DNA from: Rhodococcus spongiicola
GTDB lineage: Bacteria; Actinomycetota; Actinomycetes; Mycobacteriales; Mycobacteriaceae
Assembly: GCF_004011835.1 (NCBI RefSeq)
Contig: NZ_RKLN01000006.1
Coordinates: 186,001-250,000, forward strand
Reading direction: 5' to 3'
Length of the DNA stretch: 64,000 nucleotides
Part shown: positions 8,622 through 17,706 of the stretch, piece by piece
How positions within the stretch are numbered: position 1 is the first letter of the stretch
How the letters are laid out: every line of letters starts with the position of its first letter
The notes under the pieces: model-generated
The model's database searches: none
What the model saw: only the letters and a program-made list of their open reading frames with translations
Told to the model about the DNA's origin: nothing
Translations under genes and position numbers: made by a program

Positions 8622-9991
8622 CGGTGGTTTCCGTTCTGTGCGTGAGCGTCCTCGGCGGCGAGTCGGTAGCGCAGGAGTACGACGATGCTGAGGGCGGTGA
8701 GGATCGCGGGGGCCACAGAGAAGGCGAGGACGATACCGTCGAGGGCGGTATCGGACTGGACCACGTCTTCATCGCCGGTGGAGGAGACGAACCCGGTGAC
8801 GGCAAGTATCGCGAGCACCAGGGCGGGACCGAGAGCGAGACCGACGGTTTCGACAGCCGTCCACACCCCGCTGAACGCCCCGGCGCGGGCGGTGCCGGAC
8901 TCGGAGCGCTCGTGATCACTGATGACGTCCGGCAGCATCGACATCGGCAGCATCTGCATGCCGGCATATCCGACACCGGCCAGGGCCACCACCGCGTACA
9001 CCCACCACCCGCCGCCGGTCATCAGGCCCAGCAGCGCGACGGCCGCGGCGAGGAAGAGCGTCGATGCCAGCAGGTACGCCCGGCGCTTGCCCCAAGCCCG
9101 AACGCTCTTGGACCACAGCGGCATCACCGCGACCGCCGGCCCGACCAGCGCCGCGAACAGGATCGACACCGACCGCTCATCGCCGAGCACATACGTTGCG
9201 ACGTACTGTGCTCCGGCGAGCATCGTCCCCGTCGCGAGCGCCTGGAGTGCGAACGCGCCCAACAACACCCGGAAAGGGCCGCTGGACCGGACGACGCGCA
9301 GAGAAGCCGCGAACGGCACGCCCCCACCGACGACGGCCGTGCTCGCCGGACGGGAGGGCGCAACCCGTGAGGCCGCGAACATACCGAGGCCGAGGACGAT
9401 CCCCGCGACGACGCCCATCACGAGATAGCCCCAACGTCCGCCACCGCCGAGTTCACGCAGTTCGGGTCCGCCCGCACCGAACAGCAGGATCGCGACCCCG
9501 AGGACTGCCACGCGCCAAGCCATCAGGCGGGACCGCTCGTGGTAGTCGTGGGTCAGTTCGGCCGGCAGCGCGATGTACGGCACCTGGAAGAAGCTGAACG
9601 CCATCGCGGAGGCGATGAACGCGACCGCCACCCACACCGCGCCCGCCGCGGTACCGAGGCCGTCGGGCACGGCGAAGGTGAGGGCGAAGAAGATCGGCAG
9701 CAAGGCCGCGCCGACCACGAGGAACCGCCGTCGGCTGCCGGTCCTATGGGCCGATGCGTCGCTCCACGACCCGATCAGGGGATTGAGCACCACGTCCAGG
9801 ACCTTGGGGAGGAACACCACGACGGTCGCCGCTGCGGCCGCGACACCGAGGGTGTCGGTGAGGTAGTAGGCCAGCACCAAGCCGGGCAGGGTCGCGAAGC
9901 CACCGGTACCGACCGACCCCAGGGCGTAGCCGCGAATCGTCGCGGAGCTCAGTCGGGCGGCCGCGGATGTGGAGGCGGTCGTGGCCGTCAT
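8618..9991 (-). CDS. GPH-family (melibiose-type) major facilitator transporter
   Basis: Membrane transporter of 457 residues with about twelve hydrophobic segments. The first loop reads GSWSDASAHRTGSRRRF, close to the GxxxDRTxxxxGRRRP signature of glycoside-pentoside-hexuronide:cation symporters, and helix 1 has the typical GYALGSVGTGG. In actinobacteria such proteins also carry lipid-like or organic anionic solutes, for example MFSD2-like lysolipid carriers. Coupling by a 4-bp overlap to a sphingosine-phosphate-lyase-like enzyme suggests it imports that enzyme's substrate; this is inference. Start ATG at 9991, only about 15 bp from the end of an IS605-type remnant, so its promoter has probably been altered by the insertion. 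Confidence 0.8.
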   Translation of the reverse strand: MTATTASTSAAARLSSATIRGYALGSVGTGGFATLPGLVLAYYLTDTLGVAAAAATVVVFLPKVLDVVLNPLIGSWSDASAHRTGSRRRFLVVGAALLPIFFALTFAVPDGLGTAAGAVWVAVAFIASAMAFSFFQVPYIALPAELTHDYHERSRLMAWRVAVLGVAILLFGAGGPELRELGGGGRWGYLVMGVVAGIVLGLGMFAASRVAPSRPASTAVVGGGVPFAASLRVVRSSGPFRVLLGAFALQALATGTMLAGAQYVATYVLGDERSVSILFAALVGPAVAVMPLWSKSVRAWGKRRAYLLASTLFLAAAVALLGLMTGGGWWVYAVVALAGVGYAGMQMLPMSMLPDVISDHERSESGTARAGAFSGVWTAVETVGLALGPALVLAILAVTGFVSSTGDEDVVQSDTALDGIVLAFSVAPAILTALSIVVLLRYRLAAEDAHAQNGNHR

Positions 9992-10005
9992 CGAACGCCG
10001 CCCGA

Positions 10006-10370
10006 GAAGCCCCCGGCTTCAGCCGTGGGGAGGTAAGGGCGGTCGGGTGCTGCGTTCGGCACTGGCTACTCCTTCTCGAGTCTCTGGTGTCGGTTGGATT
10101 TCCGGTCGTGGATACAGTCGCGGATACAGAGGTGGTGCGCTACCCGTATCGGCTGCGCCCCGGCGTGCAAGCCGAGCGCGCACTGCTCGACGAATGGCAC
10201 CGTTGCCGGTTCTTGTGAAACGAAGCCGTCCACCAACAGAAGTCGGGGAACAGGCCGACCTTCGGGAGGCTATCGAAGCTCCTCACCGACGCGGGCAAGA
10301 ACAGTGAATGGTCGCGGACAGGTTCTCGAGGTGCAGTCCGAGCTGAAGCTCCCGGCTTCAGCCGTGGCGA
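10006..10370 (+). mobile_element. Decayed IS200/IS605-type element
   Basis: A short relic bounded by two copies of one terminal motif: 10006-10032 (gaagcccccggcttcagccg, then tggggag) and 10345-10370 (same sequence with ct for cc and cga at the end). This motif is familiar to me from IS605-group ends and can fold on itself (AAGCC/GGCTT). Between them lies a fragment of the TnpB N terminus with an in-frame stop. No transposase TnpA is present. Most of the element has been deleted, which explains the two near-identical ends lying only about 340 bp apart. Confidence 0.65.
10108..10340 (+). pseudogene. tnpB: TnpB (IS605 OrfB) N-terminal remnant
   Basis: From GTG 10108 the frame reads VVRYPYRLRPGVQAERALL then DEWHRCRFL, the conserved start of actinobacterial TnpB proteins. 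A TGA at 10216 stands where the family has Trp (WNEAVHQ). After the stop the same frame continues NEAVHQQKSGNRPTFGRLSK and SLLTDAGKNSEWSR-like residues, then runs into the terminal motif. So it has a nonsense mutation and lacks the whole RuvC-like nuclease part; it cannot encode an active guide-RNA nuclease. Confidence 0.75.
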
Positions 10371-10579
10371 ACAATTAAGTGAGGTCCTCTACGCACGTTG
10401 ACGCCCCAAAATCCGTTGCTATTGTCGTGAGTTGGGGCTTCGACGTTCGGATCGTGGCGAGGATGACGTAGAACATGGTGCTCATACCGACGACGCCAAT
10501 TGGTCTCACGCTCTGTCGAAACTCTCGGATCAGAACCTCGACGCCGGTTCGCTTCAGCGTTTGATGACCGGACGGCACG
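10371..10579. other. Unassigned segment between IS remnant and SDR stub
   Basis: About 210 bp of less GC-rich sequence. On the minus strand a short frame ends KPQLTTIATDFGAST, which I cannot assign. It lies at the junction where the sixth SDR copy was truncated, so it may belong to a lost mobile element. Confidence 0.3.
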
Positions 10580-10786
10580 ACATCCCCATGCTCCAGACTT
10601 CTCCGCCACGGGTCCGAGCCCACCATGGCCACGGCGATGCCGGGGTTGATGTCGCACAGCATGTTGCCCGTGCCGTGGGCCGAGCCGACCGATATCAGCA
10701 TTGCCGTGCTGTTCCTCGGCAGTGACGAGGCGCGGTACGTCACCGGGGTCACCTTCCCCGTCGATGCCGGAGCGTGCATGAAATAA
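10580..10786 (+). pseudogene. 3' stub of a sixth SDR gene of the array
   Basis: The C-terminal quarter of a carveol-dehydrogenase-type SDR, ending [20 protein letters not shown] then TAA, nearly the same as the end of the intact copies. Homology begins near 10580-10590; the whole Rossmann and catalytic part is missing. Within the variable loop it resembles the fifth intact copy best (ccgagcccaccatgg against ccgagcccaccgtgg). The stub is followed by the same type of long spacer that precedes copies 1 and 3. Truncation probably came with the IS605 insertion or later deletion. Confidence 0.8.
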
Positions 10787-10889
10787 CCGGCACGCTCGTT
10801 CTGGGGGTGGACGACAACGAGGATCTCTGCTGGGTGCGCGCCGTGCTTCCACTCTGATCCGCACAACACCTTCAGGAGGTTTTGCGAAC

Positions 10890-11726
10890 ATGTCAGGTCG
10901 TGTAGAGGGCAAGGTCGCATTCATTACCGGTGCCGCGCGGGGGCAGGGGCGTAGTCACGCAGTGCGGTTGGCGGAGGAGGGAGCGGACATCATTGCGGTC
11001 GACATCTGCGAGAACATCGACACGGTCACGTCGTACTCCCTGGCCACCGATCAGGAGTTTCAGGAGACCGTCGCGCAGGTGGAGGCGCTCGGCAGGCGGA
11101 TCGTGGCCGTCAAGGCCGATGTGCGCGACCTCGCCAGTCTCCAGAAGGCCTTCGATGCGGGGATCGAGCAGTTCGGCCGCGTCGACATCGTCGTCGCCAA
11201 CGCAGGCATCATCACCTACGGGCGGTCGTGGGAGCTCACCGCGCAGCAGTGGCAGGACGTGATCGACGTCGATCTGACCGGTGTGTACAACACGGCCAAG
11301 GTCGCGATCCCGAGCATGATCGACGCCGGACGGGGTGGGTCCATCCTGTTCACCAGTTCGATGGCCGGGCTGAAAGGGTTGCAAGGGGCAGGGCACTACG
11401 TAGCCGCCAAACACGCAATTGTCGGTCTGATGCGAACCATGGCCAACGAGCTGGGGCCGTACAACATTCGGGTGAACACCATCCACCCCACCAACGTCGA
11501 CACCCTCATGATCCACAATCCGGGCGCGTACTCGATCTTCTCGGCCGGCGAATCCGAGCCGTCTGAGGACACGGCGATGCCGGGGTTCATGTCGCTCAAC
11601 ACGCTGCCCGTGCCGTGGGTCGACCCGGCCGATGTCAGCAATGCCGTGCTGTTCCTCGGCAGTGACGAGACGCGGTACGTCACCGGGGTCACCTTCCCCG
11701 TCGATGCTGGAGCGTGTGTGAAGTGA
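10890..11726 (+). CDS. SDR oxidoreductase, carveol-dehydrogenase/mycofactocin type, array copy 1
   Basis: NAD-dependent dehydrogenase of 278 residues. It opens MSGRVEGKVAFITGAARGQG, the hallmark of the mycofactocin-coupled SDR family that includes Rhodococcus carveol dehydrogenase; in these enzymes the nicotinamide is thought to stay bound and to be reoxidised through mycofactocin. Visible motifs: TGAARGQG (13-20), NAGI (104-107), Ser157, Tyr170 and Lys174 (YVAAK). Residues 201-240 form the presumed substrate loop (HPTNVDTLMIHNPGAYSIFS in this copy). A strong AGGAGG precedes the ATG. Its first 157 codons are essentially identical in DNA to copy 2. Secondary alcohol substrates such as terpenoid alcohols are plausible but unproven. 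Confidence 0.88.
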   Translation: MSGRVEGKVAFITGAARGQGRSHAVRLAEEGADIIAVDICENIDTVTSYSLATDQEFQETVAQVEALGRRIVAVKADVRDLASLQKAFDAGIEQFGRVDIVVANAGIITYGRSWELTAQQWQDVIDVDLTGVYNTAKVAIPSMIDAGRGGSILFTSSMAGLKGLQGAGHYVAAKHAIVGLMRTMANELGPYNIRVNTIHPTNVDTLMIHNPGAYSIFSAGESEPSEDTAMPGFMSLNTLPVPWVDPADVSNAVLFLGSDETRYVTGVTFPVDAGACVK

Positions 11727-11772
11727 CTCGCAAGCCCTGGCCCACACAACATCTTCAGGAGGTTTTGCGAAC

Positions 11773-12606
11773 ATGTCAGGTCGTGTGGAGGGCAAGGTCG
11801 CGTTCATTACCGGTGCCGCGCGGGGGCAGGGGCGTAGTCACGCAGTGCGGTTGGCGGAGGAGGGAGCGGACATCATTGCGGTCGACATCTGCGAGAACAT
11901 CGACACGGTCACGTCGTACTCCCTGGCCACCGATCAGGAGTTTCAGGAGACCGTCGCGCAGGTGGAGGCGCTCGGCAGGCGGATCGTGGCCGTCAAGGCC
12001 GATGTGCGCGACCTCGCCAGTCTCCAGAAGGCCTTCGATGCGGGGATCGAGCAGTTCGGCCGCGTCGACATCGTCGTCGCCAACGCAGGCATCATCACCT
12101 ACGGGCGGTCGTGGGAGCTCACCGCGCAGCAGTGGCAGGACGTGATCGACGTCGATCTGACCGGTGTGTACAACACGGCCAAGGTCGCGATCCCGAGCAT
12201 GATCGACGCCGGACGGGGTGGGTCCATCCTGTTCACCAGTTCGACCGCAGGGTTCAAGGGGATCCAGGGGTCCGGGCACTACGTGGCCGCCAAACACGCA
12301 ATAGTCGGCCTGATGCGGACCATGGCCAACGAGCTGGGGCCGTACAACATTCGGGTGAACACCATCCACCCCACCTGTGTCGACACCTGCATGATCCGGA
12401 ATCCGGACATGTACGCGACAATGTCCAGCGAATCCGAGCCGTCCGAGGACACGGCGATGCCGGGGTTCATGTCGCTCAACACGCTGCCCGTGCCGTGGGT
12501 CGACCCGACCGACATCAGTAATGCCGTGCTGTTCCTCGGCAGTGACGAAACGCGGTACGTCACCGGGGTCACCTTCCCCGTCGATGCCGGAGCGTTGGTG
12601 AAATGA
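11773..12606 (+). CDS. SDR oxidoreductase, array copy 2
   Basis: Second tandem copy, 277 residues, one shorter than copy 1 in the substrate loop. It has the same Rossmann motif and Ser-Tyr-Lys triad. Only two bases differ from copy 1 in the first 30, then about 440 bp match completely (11803-12244 against 10920-11361). Divergence starts right at the active-site segment (STAGFKGIQGSGHYVAAK) and is largest in the loop HPTCVDTCMIRNPDMYATMS. A 46-bp spacer with its own AGGAGG separates it from copy 1, so translation is independent although transcription is probably shared. Confidence 0.88.
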   Translation: MSGRVEGKVAFITGAARGQGRSHAVRLAEEGADIIAVDICENIDTVTSYSLATDQEFQETVAQVEALGRRIVAVKADVRDLASLQKAFDAGIEQFGRVDIVVANAGIITYGRSWELTAQQWQDVIDVDLTGVYNTAKVAIPSMIDAGRGGSILFTSSTAGFKGIQGSGHYVAAKHAIVGLMRTMANELGPYNIRVNTIHPTCVDTCMIRNPDMYATMSSESEPSEDTAMPGFMSLNTLPVPWVDPTDISNAVLFLGSDETRYVTGVTFPVDAGALVK

Positions 12607-12707
12607 CCCGCAAACCCGTTCTGGGGGTGGATGACAACGTGGGCCCCCGCTCGGCGCGCGGCGCTGCTTCCCACTGATCCACAACATCTTCAGGAGGTTT
12701 TCTGAAC

Positions 12708-13547
12708 ATGTCAGGTCGTGTAGAGGGCAAGGTCGCGTTCGTTACCGGTGCCGCGCGGGGGCAGGGGCGCAGTCACGCACTACGGCTCGCGGAGGAGGGT
12801 GCGCACGTCATCGCGGTCGACATCTGCGAGAACATCGAAACGGTTACGCCGTTCTATCCTCTTGCTACCGATCAGGAGCTGCAGGAGACCGTCGCGCAGG
12901 TGGAGGCGCTCGGCCGGCGAGTCGTGGCCGTCAAGGCCGATGTGCGCGACCTCGCCGGTCTCCAGAAGGCCTTCGATACGGGCATCGAGCAGTTCGGCCA
13001 CGTCGACATCGTCGTCGCCAACGCCGGCATCATCTCCTTCGGACGCTCGTGGGAGCTCACCGCGCAGCAGTGGCAGGACATGATCGACGTCAATCTGACC
13101 GGCGTGTACAACACGGCCAAGGTCGCGATCCCGAGCATGATCGATATCGGACGCGGTGGGTCCATCCTGTTCACCAGTTCGACCGCCGGGCTCAAGGGGA
13201 TGCCAGGAGCCGGGCACTATGCGGCCGCCAAACACGCGATAGTCGGTCTGATGCGGACCATGGCCAACGAACTGGGGCCGTACTGCATTCGGGTGAACAC
13301 GATCCATCCCGGTAGTACCGACACCTTGATGATCCAAAATCCGGGCATGTACGCGAAGATGTCGCCCAATGAATCCGAGCCGTCCGAGGACACGGCTATT
13401 CCGGGGTTCATGTCGTACAACACGCTGCCCATCCCGTGGGCCGACCCGACCGACATCAGTAATGCCGTGCTGTTCCTCGGCAGTGACGAGGCGCGGTACG
13501 TCACCGGGGTCACCTTCCCCGTCGACGCCGGGCTGGGCGTGAAGTGA
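12708..13547 (+). CDS. SDR oxidoreductase, array copy 3
   Basis: Third tandem copy, 279 residues, with one extra residue near position 48 (TPFYPLATDQE) and one in the substrate loop (KMSPNESEPSED). Rossmann motif TGAARGQG, NAGI and YAAAK are intact. The middle part (about 12890-13180) is almost identical in DNA to copy 4, only the NLTG/DLTG codon differing, while the ends are less similar. Loop sequence: HPGSTDTLMIQNPGMYAKMS. It is preceded by a 101-bp spacer of the long type and a good AGGAGG site. Confidence 0.88.
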   Translation: MSGRVEGKVAFVTGAARGQGRSHALRLAEEGAHVIAVDICENIETVTPFYPLATDQELQETVAQVEALGRRVVAVKADVRDLAGLQKAFDTGIEQFGHVDIVVANAGIISFGRSWELTAQQWQDMIDVNLTGVYNTAKVAIPSMIDIGRGGSILFTSSTAGLKGMPGAGHYAAAKHAIVGLMRTMANELGPYCIRVNTIHPGSTDTLMIQNPGMYAKMSPNESEPSEDTAIPGFMSYNTLPIPWADPTDISNAVLFLGSDEARYVTGVTFPVDAGLGVK

Positions 13548-13593
13548 CTCGCAAACCCTGATCCACACAACACCGCCAGGAGGTCTTGCGAAC

Positions 13594-14430
13594 ATGTCAG
13601 GTCGTGTAGAGGGCAAGATCGCGTTCGTTACCGGTGCCGCGCGGGGGCAGGGGCGCAGTCACGCGGTACGGCTGGCGGAGGAGGGTGCAGACGTCATTGC
13701 GGTCGACATCTGCGGGAACATCGACACGGTCACGCATTACTCTCTGGCCACCGATCAGGATCTGCAGGAGACCGTCGCGCAGGTGGAGGCGCTCGGCCGG
13801 CGAGTCGTGGCCGTCAAGGCCGATGTGCGCGACCTCGCCGGTCTCCAGAAGGCCTTCGATACGGGCATCGAGCAGTTCGGCCACGTCGACATCGTCGTCG
13901 CCAACGCCGGCATCATCTCCTTCGGACGCTCGTGGGAGCTCACCGCGCAGCAGTGGCAGGACATGATCGACGTCGATCTGACCGGCGTGTACAACACGGC
14001 CAAGGTCGCGATCCCGAGCATGATCGATATCGGACGCGGTGGGTCCATCCTGTTCACCAGTTCGACCGCCGGGCTGAAGGGGTTGCGGACGATGGCGCAC
14101 TACGTGGCCGCCAAGCACGGAGTCGTCGGTCTGATGCGGACCATGGCCAACGAGCTGGGGCCGTACAACATTCGGGTGAACTCCATCCATCCCGGCAGTG
14201 TCGACACCGCGATGATCCATAATTCGGGCATGTACGGGAGGATGTCGCCCGGTGAATCCGAGCCGTCCCGGGACAGTGCGATTCCGGGGTTCTTGTCGTG
14301 CAACACGCTGCCCATCCCGTGGGTCGATCCGATCGACATCAGCAGTGCCGTGGTGTTCCTCGGCAGTGACGAGGCGCGGTACATCACCGGGGTCACCTTC
14401 CCCGTCGATGCCGGGCTGTGCGTGAAGTGA
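13594..14430 (+). CDS. SDR oxidoreductase, array copy 4
   Basis: Fourth tandem copy, 278 residues, catalytic residues intact (YVAAK). It shares its middle third with copy 3. The substrate loop differs again (HPGSVDTAMIHNSGMYGRMS, followed by PGESEPSRDSAIPGFLSCN), and the active-site flank reads LKGLRTMAHYVAAKHGVVG. The spacer to copy 3 is 46 bp of the short type, with AGGAGG 5-10 nt before the ATG. The different loop suggests a different alcohol substrate; this is inference. Confidence 0.88.
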   Translation: MSGRVEGKIAFVTGAARGQGRSHAVRLAEEGADVIAVDICGNIDTVTHYSLATDQDLQETVAQVEALGRRVVAVKADVRDLAGLQKAFDTGIEQFGHVDIVVANAGIISFGRSWELTAQQWQDMIDVDLTGVYNTAKVAIPSMIDIGRGGSILFTSSTAGLKGLRTMAHYVAAKHGVVGLMRTMANELGPYNIRVNSIHPGSVDTAMIHNSGMYGRMSPGESEPSRDSAIPGFLSCNTLPIPWVDPIDISSAVVFLGSDEARYITGVTFPVDAGLCVK

Positions 14431-14475
14431 CTCGCAAACCCTGATCCACACAACACCGTCAGGAGGTTTCCGAAC

Positions 14476-15312
14476 ATGTCAGGTCGTGTAGAGGGCAAGG
14501 TCGCATTCATTACCGGTGCCGCGCGGGGGCAGGGGCGCAGTCACGCGGTACGGCTGGCGGAGGAGGGTGCAGACATCATCGCGGTCGACATCTGCGAGAA
14601 CATCGAGACGGTCGCGCACTACTCCCTGGCCACCGATCAGGATCTGCAGGAGACCGTCGCGCAGGTGGAGGCGCTCGGCAGGCGGATCGTGGCCGTCAAG
14701 GCCGATGTGCGTGACCTCGCCGGTCTCCAGAAGGCCTTCGATACGGGTATCGAGCAGTTCGGCCACGTCGACATCGTCGTCGCCAATGCCGGCATCATCA
14801 CCTTCGGACGGTCGTGGGAGCTCACCTCGGAAGAATGGCGGGACGTGATCGATGTCAATCTGACCGGTGTGTACAACACGGCCAAGGTCGCGATCCCGAG
14901 CATGATCGACGCCGGACGCGGTGGGGCCATCCTGTTCACCAGTTCGACCGGCGGGCTGAAAGGGCTGCAGATGATGGGGCACTATGTGGCCGCCAAACAC
15001 GCAATAGTCGGTCTGATGCGGACCATGGCCAACGAACTGGGGCCGCACCGCATTCGGGTCAACACCATCCATCCCGGCAGTGTCGACACCGCGATGTTCC
15101 AGAATCCGGGCACGTACTCGGTGTTCTCGCCCGGAGAATCCGAGCCCACCGTGGATACGGCGATGCCAGCGGTGATCGCGCAACACGCGCTGCCCACACC
15201 GTGGGTCGATCCGATCGACATCAGCAATGCGGTGTTGTTCCTCGGCAGTGATGAGGCGCGGTACGTCACCGGGGTCACCTTCTCCGTCGATGCCGGAGCG
15301 TGCGTGAAATGA
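14476..15312 (+). CDS. SDR oxidoreductase, array copy 5
   Basis: Fifth and last intact copy, 278 residues. It is the most diverged in the helix after NAGI (ELTSEEWRDVIDVNLTG in place of ELTAQQWQD) and in the substrate loop (HPGSVDTAMFQNPGTYSVFS, then PAVIAQHALPTPW). TGAARGQG and YVAAK are intact. A 45-bp spacer with AGGAGG precedes it. The truncated stub at 10580-10786 resembles this copy most closely in the loop, which hints that the array once expanded by block duplication. Confidence 0.88.
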   Translation: MSGRVEGKVAFITGAARGQGRSHAVRLAEEGADIIAVDICENIETVAHYSLATDQDLQETVAQVEALGRRIVAVKADVRDLAGLQKAFDTGIEQFGHVDIVVANAGIITFGRSWELTSEEWRDVIDVNLTGVYNTAKVAIPSMIDAGRGGAILFTSSTGGLKGLQMMGHYVAAKHAIVGLMRTMANELGPHRIRVNTIHPGSVDTAMFQNPGTYSVFSPGESEPTVDTAMPAVIAQHALPTPWVDPIDISNAVLFLGSDEARYVTGVTFSVDAGACVK

Positions 15313-15356
15313 CTCGCAAACCCTGATCCACAACACCTTCAGGCGGTTTCCGAAGG
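15313..15356 (+). repeat. Decayed array spacer after the last SDR copy
   Basis: The sequence after copy 5 still matches the intergenic spacer (ctcgcaaaccctgatccaca, then acaccttcag), but the ribosome binding site reads caggcggtttccgaa where active spacers have caggaggttt(t/c)cgaac followed by ATG. No SDR gene follows. This marks a lost or never completed further copy at the right end of the array. Confidence 0.6.
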
Positions 15357-15507
15357 CGTCGATCCAGGTCAGGGTTCGGTCGGAACCGACCGCTCAGATA
15401 GCGTGTCAGGGGCCGTTGCTACCGTCTGGCGGGGGTCCGAGATCGAAGCATCGGATCACTCGCGTATTCATGGTGTGCTTGTTGGTCCTCGAAAGGTGCT
15501 GTCCCCC

Positions 15508-16554: not shown

Positions 16555-17706
16555 GTGAATTGGCTCAGTGATTTTCAAGGCTACCCGGTTGGGAAGCGCG
16601 CCACGCGTCTGATGGTCGCGGTGGCAACTGCTTCCGCGATGGCTATGGGTTTGGCCGGCGTGGGGGCGTCGGCCGCGACAGCGGACACGGTCATAGGCAC
16701 CATTCCGGTCGGAAACGCCCCCGACGGGGTGGCAGTGTCCCCGTCAGGGTCCCGTGCCTACGTCGCGAACTCCAGCGACGGCACTGTGTCGGTGATCGAC
16801 ACCGCTACGAACGCGTTGGTCGCCACAGTTGGGGTCGGGAACAACCCACGAGGGTTGGCAGTGAACCCGGCCGGGTCCCGTGTCTATGTCGCCAACGCCA
16901 GCGACAACACAGTGTCGGTGATCGACACCGCCGTGAACACCGCGGTCGACACTGTTGCTGTCGGGATCACCCCGGTCGCGGTGGCAGTGTCGCCGCTCGG
17001 GTCCCGCGTCTACGTCACCGACCGTGCCGACGGCACGGTGTCGGTGATCGACACCGCTACGAACGCGGTGGTCGACACCATTGCGGTCGGGAACGGACCG
17101 CGAGGGGTGGCGGTGAACCCGCTGGGGTCTCGTGTCTACGTCACCAACCGTATGGACGGCACGGTGTCGGTGATCGACACTTTCGCCAATGCGGTGGTCG
17201 ACACCATCGGGGTCGGAAACAATCCCGATGGAGTGGCGGTGTCCCCGTTCGGGTTTCGTGTCTACGTCGCCAACCGAATCGACGGCACGGTGTCGGTGAT
17301 CGACACCTTCACGAACACGGTGATCGACACCGTTGCGGTCGGGAGCACTCCGAGCGGGGTGGCGGTGACCCCCGATGGCTCCCGCGTCTACGTCACCGTT
17401 GTCAACGCTGACATCGTGTCGGTGATCGACACCTTCACAAACACGACGGCCGAAACCATTCCGGTTGGCGATGGACCGCGTGGGGTGGCGGTGAGGCCGG
17501 ACGGGTCGCGTGTCTACGCCACCATTGGTGGCGACGGCGAGGTGTCGGTGATCGCGGTCGAGAAGTGCCCTGGGTCGTTGTGCTTCGGCGCTGGTTCGTT
17601 GGCGGGTGCGGGTTCGTCGGCGAGCGGCGGTTCGAGTGACACCGGCTCACTGACGGGCGTGGGTTCGTTGGCCGGTGGTGGTGCGACGGGCAGCACTGGC
17701 AGCTGA
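16555..17706 (+). CDS. Secreted seven-bladed YVTN beta-propeller protein
   Basis: Protein of 383 residues with a Sec signal peptide (basic start, hydrophobic core, cleavage near ASAATA). Residues about 44-335 are seven repeats of 42 residues with the pattern (V/I)xTIxVGxxPxGVAVxPxG followed by SRVYVxNxxDGTVSVIDT, the YVTN/lactonase-like surface-layer repeat; seven blades would close one propeller. The tail is Gly/Ser-rich with two cysteines (CPGSLC) and lacks a sortase signal. Start is GTG at 16555 with GGTAGGAGAG upstream; alternative starts would cut into the signal. Such propellers bind ligands or partners on the cell surface; no enzymatic residue is evident. Confidence 0.82.
   Translation: MNWLSDFQGYPVGKRATRLMVAVATASAMAMGLAGVGASAATADTVIGTIPVGNAPDGVAVSPSGSRAYVANSSDGTVSVIDTATNALVATVGVGNNPRGLAVNPAGSRVYVANASDNTVSVIDTAVNTAVDTVAVGITPVAVAVSPLGSRVYVTDRADGTVSVIDTATNAVVDTIAVGNGPRGVAVNPLGSRVYVTNRMDGTVSVIDTFANAVVDTIGVGNNPDGVAVSPFGFRVYVANRIDGTVSVIDTFTNTVIDTVAVGSTPSGVAVTPDGSRVYVTVVNADIVSVIDTFTNTTAETIPVGDGPRGVAVRPDGSRVYATIGGDGEVSVIAVEKCPGSLCFGAGSLAGAGSSASGGSSDTGSLTGVGSLAGGGATGSTGS

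Follow-up and report, generated by a model that had tools for sequence, protein, structure and literature searches.

In a window of 64,000 nucleotides from Rhodococcus spongiicola (contig NZ_RKLN01000006.1, positions 186,001 to 250,000), five intact genes for short-chain dehydrogenases/reductases (SDRs) form a head-to-tail series on the + strand at 10890–15312. The genes appear to evolve in a partly concerted mode, in which one part of the gene tends to group by genome and the other by orthologue across species. The most probable explanation is that gene conversion homogenises the cofactor-facing half and that the lids over the substrate pocket diversify for different alcohols.

Gene copies and family assignment

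The five open reading frames (ORFs) encode 277–279 residues and recur as in-register repeats at spacings of 882–938 nt, far beyond chance. In every copy, AGGAGG ends 9–10 nt ahead of the ATG and TGAARGQG stands at residue 13. Ser157-Tyr170-Lys174 (copy 1 numbering) is invariant in all five copies and in 45 of 45 aligned relatives, with the numbering of copy 3 shifted by +1 through a one-residue insertion; the nicotinamide adenine dinucleotide (NAD) residues are likewise invariant across the copies. A first-pass annotation, made from the sequence alone, had described five intact same-strand genes with their own ribosome sites and both motifs, and was accurate on each point. Protein identity to copy 1 is 94% for copy 2, 85% for copies 3 and 5 and 84% for copy 4. 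Below, 'own' denotes copies 1–5 of the window genome, a draft in 29 contigs, and 'xish' those of R. xishaensis.

10890..11726, + strand: SDR copy 1, 278 aa, TIGR03971 score 409.1 bits
11490..11624, + strand: substrate lid of copy 1 (codons 201–245), 27 of 45 positions variable among the copies
11773..12606, + strand: SDR copy 2, 277 aa, 408.7 bits, M-type lid at 12373–12504 (lid tree)
12708..13547, + strand: SDR copy 3, 279 aa, 398.9 bits, M-type lid at 13311–13445
13594..14430, + strand: SDR copy 4, 278 aa, 406.0 bits, M-type lid at 14194–14328
14476..15312, + strand: SDR copy 5, 278 aa, 406.2 bits, F-type lid at 15076–15210

All five copies score 399–409 bits against TIGR03971 (curated cut-off 300), which places them in the mycofactocin-coupled family, as had been predicted. 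The genome encodes seven members above this cut-off, five of them within the array, and a further TIGR03971 SDR sits in its mft locus. The search for mft genes elsewhere in the genome, proposed with the first-pass annotation, recovered a complete set, all above cut-off: mftA (48.8 bits), mftB (113), mftC (663), mftD (739), mftE (330), mftF (606), mftG (648) and mftR (274). MftA ends in IDGMCGVY, and two mycofactocin-system old yellow enzyme genes are also present. Compared with a plain SDR encoded elsewhere in the window, the array proteins carry 8–9 extra residues after beta-2 at the NAD site, then four more shortly after; an insertion at this position is a described trait of the family (PMC5264612). 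The AlphaFold model (mean predicted local distance difference test score 96.5) forms the lid from two helices, 211–217 and 226–236, and a two-helix lid is likewise described for mycobacterial relatives (PMC5264612). The best PDB matches, 3uve and 5ej2, are both named carveol dehydrogenase, a name that serves as a family label. Judged by sequence, the five genes are mycofactocin-coupled nicotinoprotein SDRs, and use of bound NAD and mycofactocin is expected from TIGR03971 membership together with the mft set (PMC5264612, PMC3023750).

Conversion tracts and conflicting histories within one gene

Gene conversion was assessed by permutation over 55 gene pairs (400 permutations, global p), with all sites and silent sites run separately. 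Over all sites, three of the 55 pairs returned 0/400, namely own1/own2, own3/own4 and xish1/xish2; on silent sites alone, global p was 0.03 for own1/own2 and 0.7 for own3/own4. Two identical tracts in the window belong to the two own pairs:

10920..11361, + strand: 442-nt tract, presumed gene conversion, identical to copy 2 at 11803–12244 and ending at the catalytic serine
12879..13091, + strand: 213-nt tract in copy 3, identical to copy 4 at 13762–13974

Codons 1–153 of own1 and own2 are separated by two substitutions, both silent (synonymous divergence, dS, 0.018), and codons 154–245 show dS 0.249 and a nonsynonymous divergence (dN) of 0.098. Because six flanking genes compared between the window genome and R. 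xishaensis have dS 0.145–0.345, the 5' halves of copies 1 and 2 were made alike after the species split, and their 3' parts date back roughly to the split itself.

Trees of 18 genes reproduce this division, with approximately unbiased (AU) tests applied to within-genome and cross-genome groupings. The codons 1–153 tree pairs own1 with own2 (100/100) and own3 with own4 (98/98), as well as the two copies of R. marinonascens (99/97) and those of genome G141 (94/99). The codons 154–245 tree instead recovers cross-species pairs, own5 with xish2 (100/97) and own4 with xish1 (97/93), so that copies 4 and 5 are orthologues of xish1 and xish2, respectively, in this part. For the lid, the AU test rejects a single clade of own (1.3e-4), xish (7.6e-5) or R. 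marinonascens copies (7.2e-4); for codons 1–153 it rejects own4+xish1 (2.7e-5). The conflict is strongest where own1/own2, own3/own4 and the R. marinonascens pair stand against own4/xish1 and own5/xish2. Two lid types, Y-S/A-x-F and Y-x-x-M, are both common to the array genomes with moderate support (89–90); the outgroups are F-like, and the lid tree leaves the placement of copy 1 unresolved. The genome groups were named beforehand and the M-type clade after the alignment had been seen.

Divergence of the pocket and lid

Variation among the five copies is unevenly spread. Besides the lid, the active-site stretch 157–175 varies at 9 of 19 positions; residues 1–38 vary at 5 of 38, residues 54–106 at 6 of 53 and the NAD insertion loop at six columns. 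To place this in context, all 18 same-genome pairs of array copies, taken from four genomes, were compared with 159 control pairs of 78–96% identity drawn from 78 of 80 loci, from which L042 and L043 were excluded as arrays and none was dropped for stops. This set replaced an earlier one of 48 hand-picked loci of the 80 plus two others. Pocket-biased divergence exceeded the control maximum in all 18 array pairs under two pocket definitions, with pocket limits chosen after viewing the alignment, from catalytic residues and predicted helices, and with pairs that are not independent and some control loci that are themselves tandem.

Codon models gave the same direction. Across 13 array genes, omega (dN/dS) was 0.490 in the pocket and 0.248 in the rest; in control clades from Prauserella, Mycolicibacter and Streptomyces it was 0.031–0.076 and 0.067–0.097, respectively. 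As codon-model omega is independent of the amount of conversion, this contrast indicates that pocket change is enriched beyond what homogenisation of the rest would produce. Averages below 1 fit relaxed, mixed or diversifying selection alike. The description of the array as an amplified, diversifying set therefore stands in sharper form, with the lid diverging and the NAD half homogenised within genomes; terpenoid substrates gain no support, since the carveol name only labels the family and the locus has lost the adjacent pathway genes from which a substrate might have been read.

A separate tandem SDR pair, 81% identical, was found in a metagenome-assembled genome (MAG) of Actinomycetota (L063, 7151–8831). 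Its pocket/rest ratio is 3.33, and it may represent another, independent instance of divergence concentrated in the lid.

Insertion site and origin of the array

Beyond what the first-pass annotation had proposed, the array proves to be inserted at its site and probably derives from a larger catabolic cluster. The comparison covered 14 congeneric genomes including the window genome and R. xishaensis, hence 12 others. In eight of these 12, the flanking MFS and YdjM genes are adjacent with no SDR between them, and the remaining four have no MFS gene within the 1.5 kb examined. Against the empty site, homology breaks on the left at 9991 (at 9982 in three of the eight) and resumes on the right at 15401–15402 in six, with 15479 and 15488 in the other two; about 5.4 kb has therefore been inserted.

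9992..15400, no strand assigned: whole insert, ~5.4 kb, absent from eight congeners with adjacent flanking MFS and YdjM genes
10468..10539, + strand: weak remnant of the korB 3' end (2-oxoacid:ferredoxin oxidoreductase beta), 58% across 24 aa to KorB of R. marinonascens in tblastn, E 1.6e-4
10616..10783, + strand: decayed sixth SDR, a 3' stub of the last 56 codons, 75% to an R. marinonascens SDR, E 8e-24
10784..10889, + strand: long spacer in which the degraded start of a PNPOx-like flavoprotein gene is followed by AGGAGG; matches the start of the intact R. marinonascens gene after copy 2
12607..12707, + strand: long spacer between copies 2 and 3 carrying the same flavoprotein-gene remnant; matches the R. 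marinonascens gene start
15313..15350, + strand: spacer remnant after copy 5, intergenic unit kept, AGGCGG replacing AGGAGG

The stub ahead of the array and the decayed spacer behind it had both been noted from the sequence and hold up. The stub matches TIGR03971 at profile positions 197–270 and contains two TGA codons; the spacer remnant at 15313–15350 is likely the leader of a further, lost copy. At the equivalent site in R. xishaensis, the korB remnant is stronger (78–79% over 66 aa, E 2e-22, tblastn). That separately assembled genome also provides the independent occurrence that had been sought, with four copies between the same flanking genes and flanks 81–97% identical to those of the window.

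A survey of copy number in related strains, also proposed earlier, covered 401 genomes of the family, 21 of which have a match at E 1e-105 or better. At least two copies at ≥83% identity occur in four: the window genome (five), R. xishaensis (four), R. marinonascens (two) and G141 (two). The two-copy arrays of R. marinonascens and G141 each follow korA-korB. In R. marinonascens, copy 2 is followed by an intact PNPOx-like flavoprotein gene (PF01243, 40.3 bits), and the broken start of this gene appears in two spacers of the window and in one each of R. xishaensis and R. marinonascens. Because these gene starts persist in the spacers, what unequal recombination multiplied was probably an SDR gene along with the first part of the gene behind it. 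Two local details concern these clusters: an opposite-strand multicopper oxidase gene lies between korB and the SDR pair in G141 (L164, 6626–8110), and a 95-aa remnant just ahead of the pair in R. marinonascens (L043, 6610–6897), 84% identical to a Gordonia rhizosphera AMP-binding CoA ligase, shows the cluster decaying there too.

Single-copy relatives (73–79% identity) stand amid acyl-CoA dehydrogenase, korAB, CoA-ligase, MaoC or P450 genes in varying combinations, and the related clusters hold varying sets of acyl-CoA dehydrogenase, KorAB, AMP-binding CoA ligase, MaoC, enoyl-CoA hydratase and P450. The cluster P450 is closest by score to reconstructed CYP125, P450cin and CYP142, and the cluster CoA ligase falls below cut-off for every NCBIfam model among those listed; neither comparison gave a specific substrate, and none was assigned from gene context. 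A plasmid origin was also considered: 52 PLSDB records match copy 5, all below 60% identity, giving no near plasmid donor. Promoter and terminator scans yielded counts at or below chance, with no terminator-like site within the array. Just downstream of the YdjM gene, at 16555–17706, the window encodes a predicted beta-propeller protein with six in-register 126-nt repeats, spaced by exactly 126 and 62–74% identical to the reference copy.

Proposed working of the array and alternative explanations

From what is known of the family, each copy would oxidise an alcohol under its lid, with the hydride passing first to the buried NAD and from there to mycofactocin; MftG would reoxidise the carrier, in keeping with the role described for it (PMC11778925), and feed respiration. 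The array probably arose in a catabolic cluster similar to the extant one of R. marinonascens, through unequal recombination. In an ancestor of the window genome and R. xishaensis, it would then have been placed, without its pathway genes, between the MFS and YdjM genes. Short conversions since then would have fallen mostly on the 5' half, the part that binds NAD and probably also contacts mycofactocin, making it tend to match its same-genome neighbours. The active-site loop and two-helix lid retain old, lineage-crossing types and vary. This makes it most likely that the substrates of the copies are different or overlapping alcohols, and five lids on a common cofactor half would broaden the alcohol range at little cost. 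Conversion may keep alike the half that meets the shared partner, as proposed for TLR1/TLR6 (PMC2077338). A further-reaching version, which we advance tentatively, treats the array as a modular enzyme kit: conversion would keep the NAD- and mycofactocin-docking half interchangeable, since every copy has to work with the same redox partner, and selection would maintain and spread the distinct lids, of which at least two would predate the divergence of this lineage from R. marinonascens. The conversion boundary near the catalytic serine would then mark the division between mycofactocin docking and substrate choice.

Several observations weigh against uniform halves and selectively diversified lids. 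A plain split of the gene into its C-terminal half and the remainder puts only 6 of the 18 array pairs above the highest control value. Lid omega (codons 201–240) is 0.516, and fixing it at 1 fits worse by 4.3 log-likelihood units; positive selection on the lid, sought as an average omega above 1, was accordingly not detected. For own4/xish1, a pair of true orthologues, the pocket excess is small (dN 0.075 vs 0.067). In codons 1–153, the best tree does not unite the five own copies, although their single clade is not rejected (AU p 0.137, 0.326), which makes homogenisation pairwise and not array-wide; the R. xishaensis clade is weakly supported in the larger tree (67/92), and own5+xish2 is not clearly rejected (p 0.063). 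Conversion does not always spare the C-terminal part, since a significant xish1/xish2 tract covers codons 164–198 within it. The silent-site signal is significant for copies 1/2 only, the lid types, supported at only 89–90, are not recovered when codons 154–245 are analysed whole, and the G141 pair as sisters is not rejected in any gene part.

Selection need not be the reason that the lids escape conversion. Homologous recombination is limited by mismatch, and if conversion simply acts wherever sequences are alike, a lid already too diverged to recombine would persist with no protective selection; lid windows down to 69–75% identity for some pairs fit this mechanism. We consider it rather unlikely, as the R. 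xishaensis tract demonstrates that the pocket side can recombine, and a passive barrier gives no account of why the lid diverged first, opposite to the trend in the 159 control pairs. Still less probable is amplification for dosage, whereby the array supplies more of one enzyme and the lids of redundant copies drift under relaxed constraint. Omega is indeed raised outside the pocket as well (0.248 vs 0.067–0.097 in controls), copy number differs among genomes (5, 4, 2, 2), and the array without internal terminators would fit a single transcript. Redundancy, however, should relax all parts, yet the pocket/rest omega ratio is 2.0 vs 0.46–0.80 in controls; all five copies are intact, and lid types common to two species (own5/xish2, own4/xish1) have been kept through speciation.

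A non-functional relic of the lost pathway would explain why the surrounding cluster genes are gone, why a korB fragment and a pseudogene remain and why promoter-like sites do not exceed chance. Such decay is very improbable given five of five intact frames with ribosome sites, invariant catalytic and NAD residues, omega well below 1 and maintenance of the array in two species between which the flanking genes show dS 0.145–0.345. Assembly error, with similar copies collapsed or chimerically joined and copy number or identical tracts misreported, is the least credible explanation. The window genome is a draft, and 442 nt of exact identity is difficult for short reads, but the four copies with the same flanks in R. 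xishaensis argue that the array is not merely an artefact, G141 (main contig 4.44 Mb) has two copies, and every own copy has a distinct lid.

The proposed conversion of the cofactor half and diversification of the lids bear on the natural substrates of the family and on its docking to mycofactocin. The array resembles one engine with several substrate lids: as a natural set of near-identical NAD halves with different lids, it makes the alcohol-choosing and partner-facing residues directly testable. Should lid exchange leave coupling intact, a single mycofactocin-dependent scaffold could gain new alcohol specificities. If the interpretation is correct, it would provide a bacterial case of gene conversion sparing the specificity region inside a metabolic enzyme.

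Comparison with known systems

The array proteins agree with the carveol-dehydrogenase type of TIGR03971 in profile score, NAD insertion loop, Ser-Tyr-Lys, the two-helix loop over the nicotinamide and the full mft set. Large paralogue numbers are reported for this family, e.g. 16 in R. jostii RHA1 (PMC3023750). The available passages on paralogue expansion mention no near-identical tandem array, and 'tandem' occurs 0 times in the available text of PMC3023750; relative to the expansions described there, the window genome differs in having five of its seven members in one array with one half converted. Tandem TIGR03971 neighbours occur at 22 of the 80 loci, where they are 43–75% identical (81% in the L063 MAG pair) vs 82–94% in the window array. 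A longer, older array of six tandem TIGR03971-like matches, 49–65% identical to their neighbours, is found in Agromyces sp. Marseille-P2726 (L087, 4429–9746), and a congener lacking the window array (G008; L123, 10003–11693) carries a different tandem pair, 55–59% identical to copy 1. Literature searches, with subscription journals mostly outside their coverage, returned no paper joining mycofactocin and gene conversion and no case in this family of conversion sparing a specificity region.

The closest parallels in evolutionary mode come from vertebrates. In mammalian TLR1/TLR6, independent gene conversions maintain the similarity of one part of the tandem paralogues in each species, which is ascribed to their common binding partners; the ligand part diverges (PMC2077338). 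Those are two immune-receptor genes, whereas the arrays described here comprise 2–5 bacterial oxidoreductase genes of an unrelated family, and the analogy is one of evolutionary mode only. Vertebrate UGT clusters, with their variable exons, similarly encode tandem enzymes that have diversified in the acceptor pocket and share a constant part for the cofactor donor (PMC1885805). There, however, the constant part is a shared exon and gene conversion is described as not predominant (PMC1885805), whereas each gene of the window array is complete.

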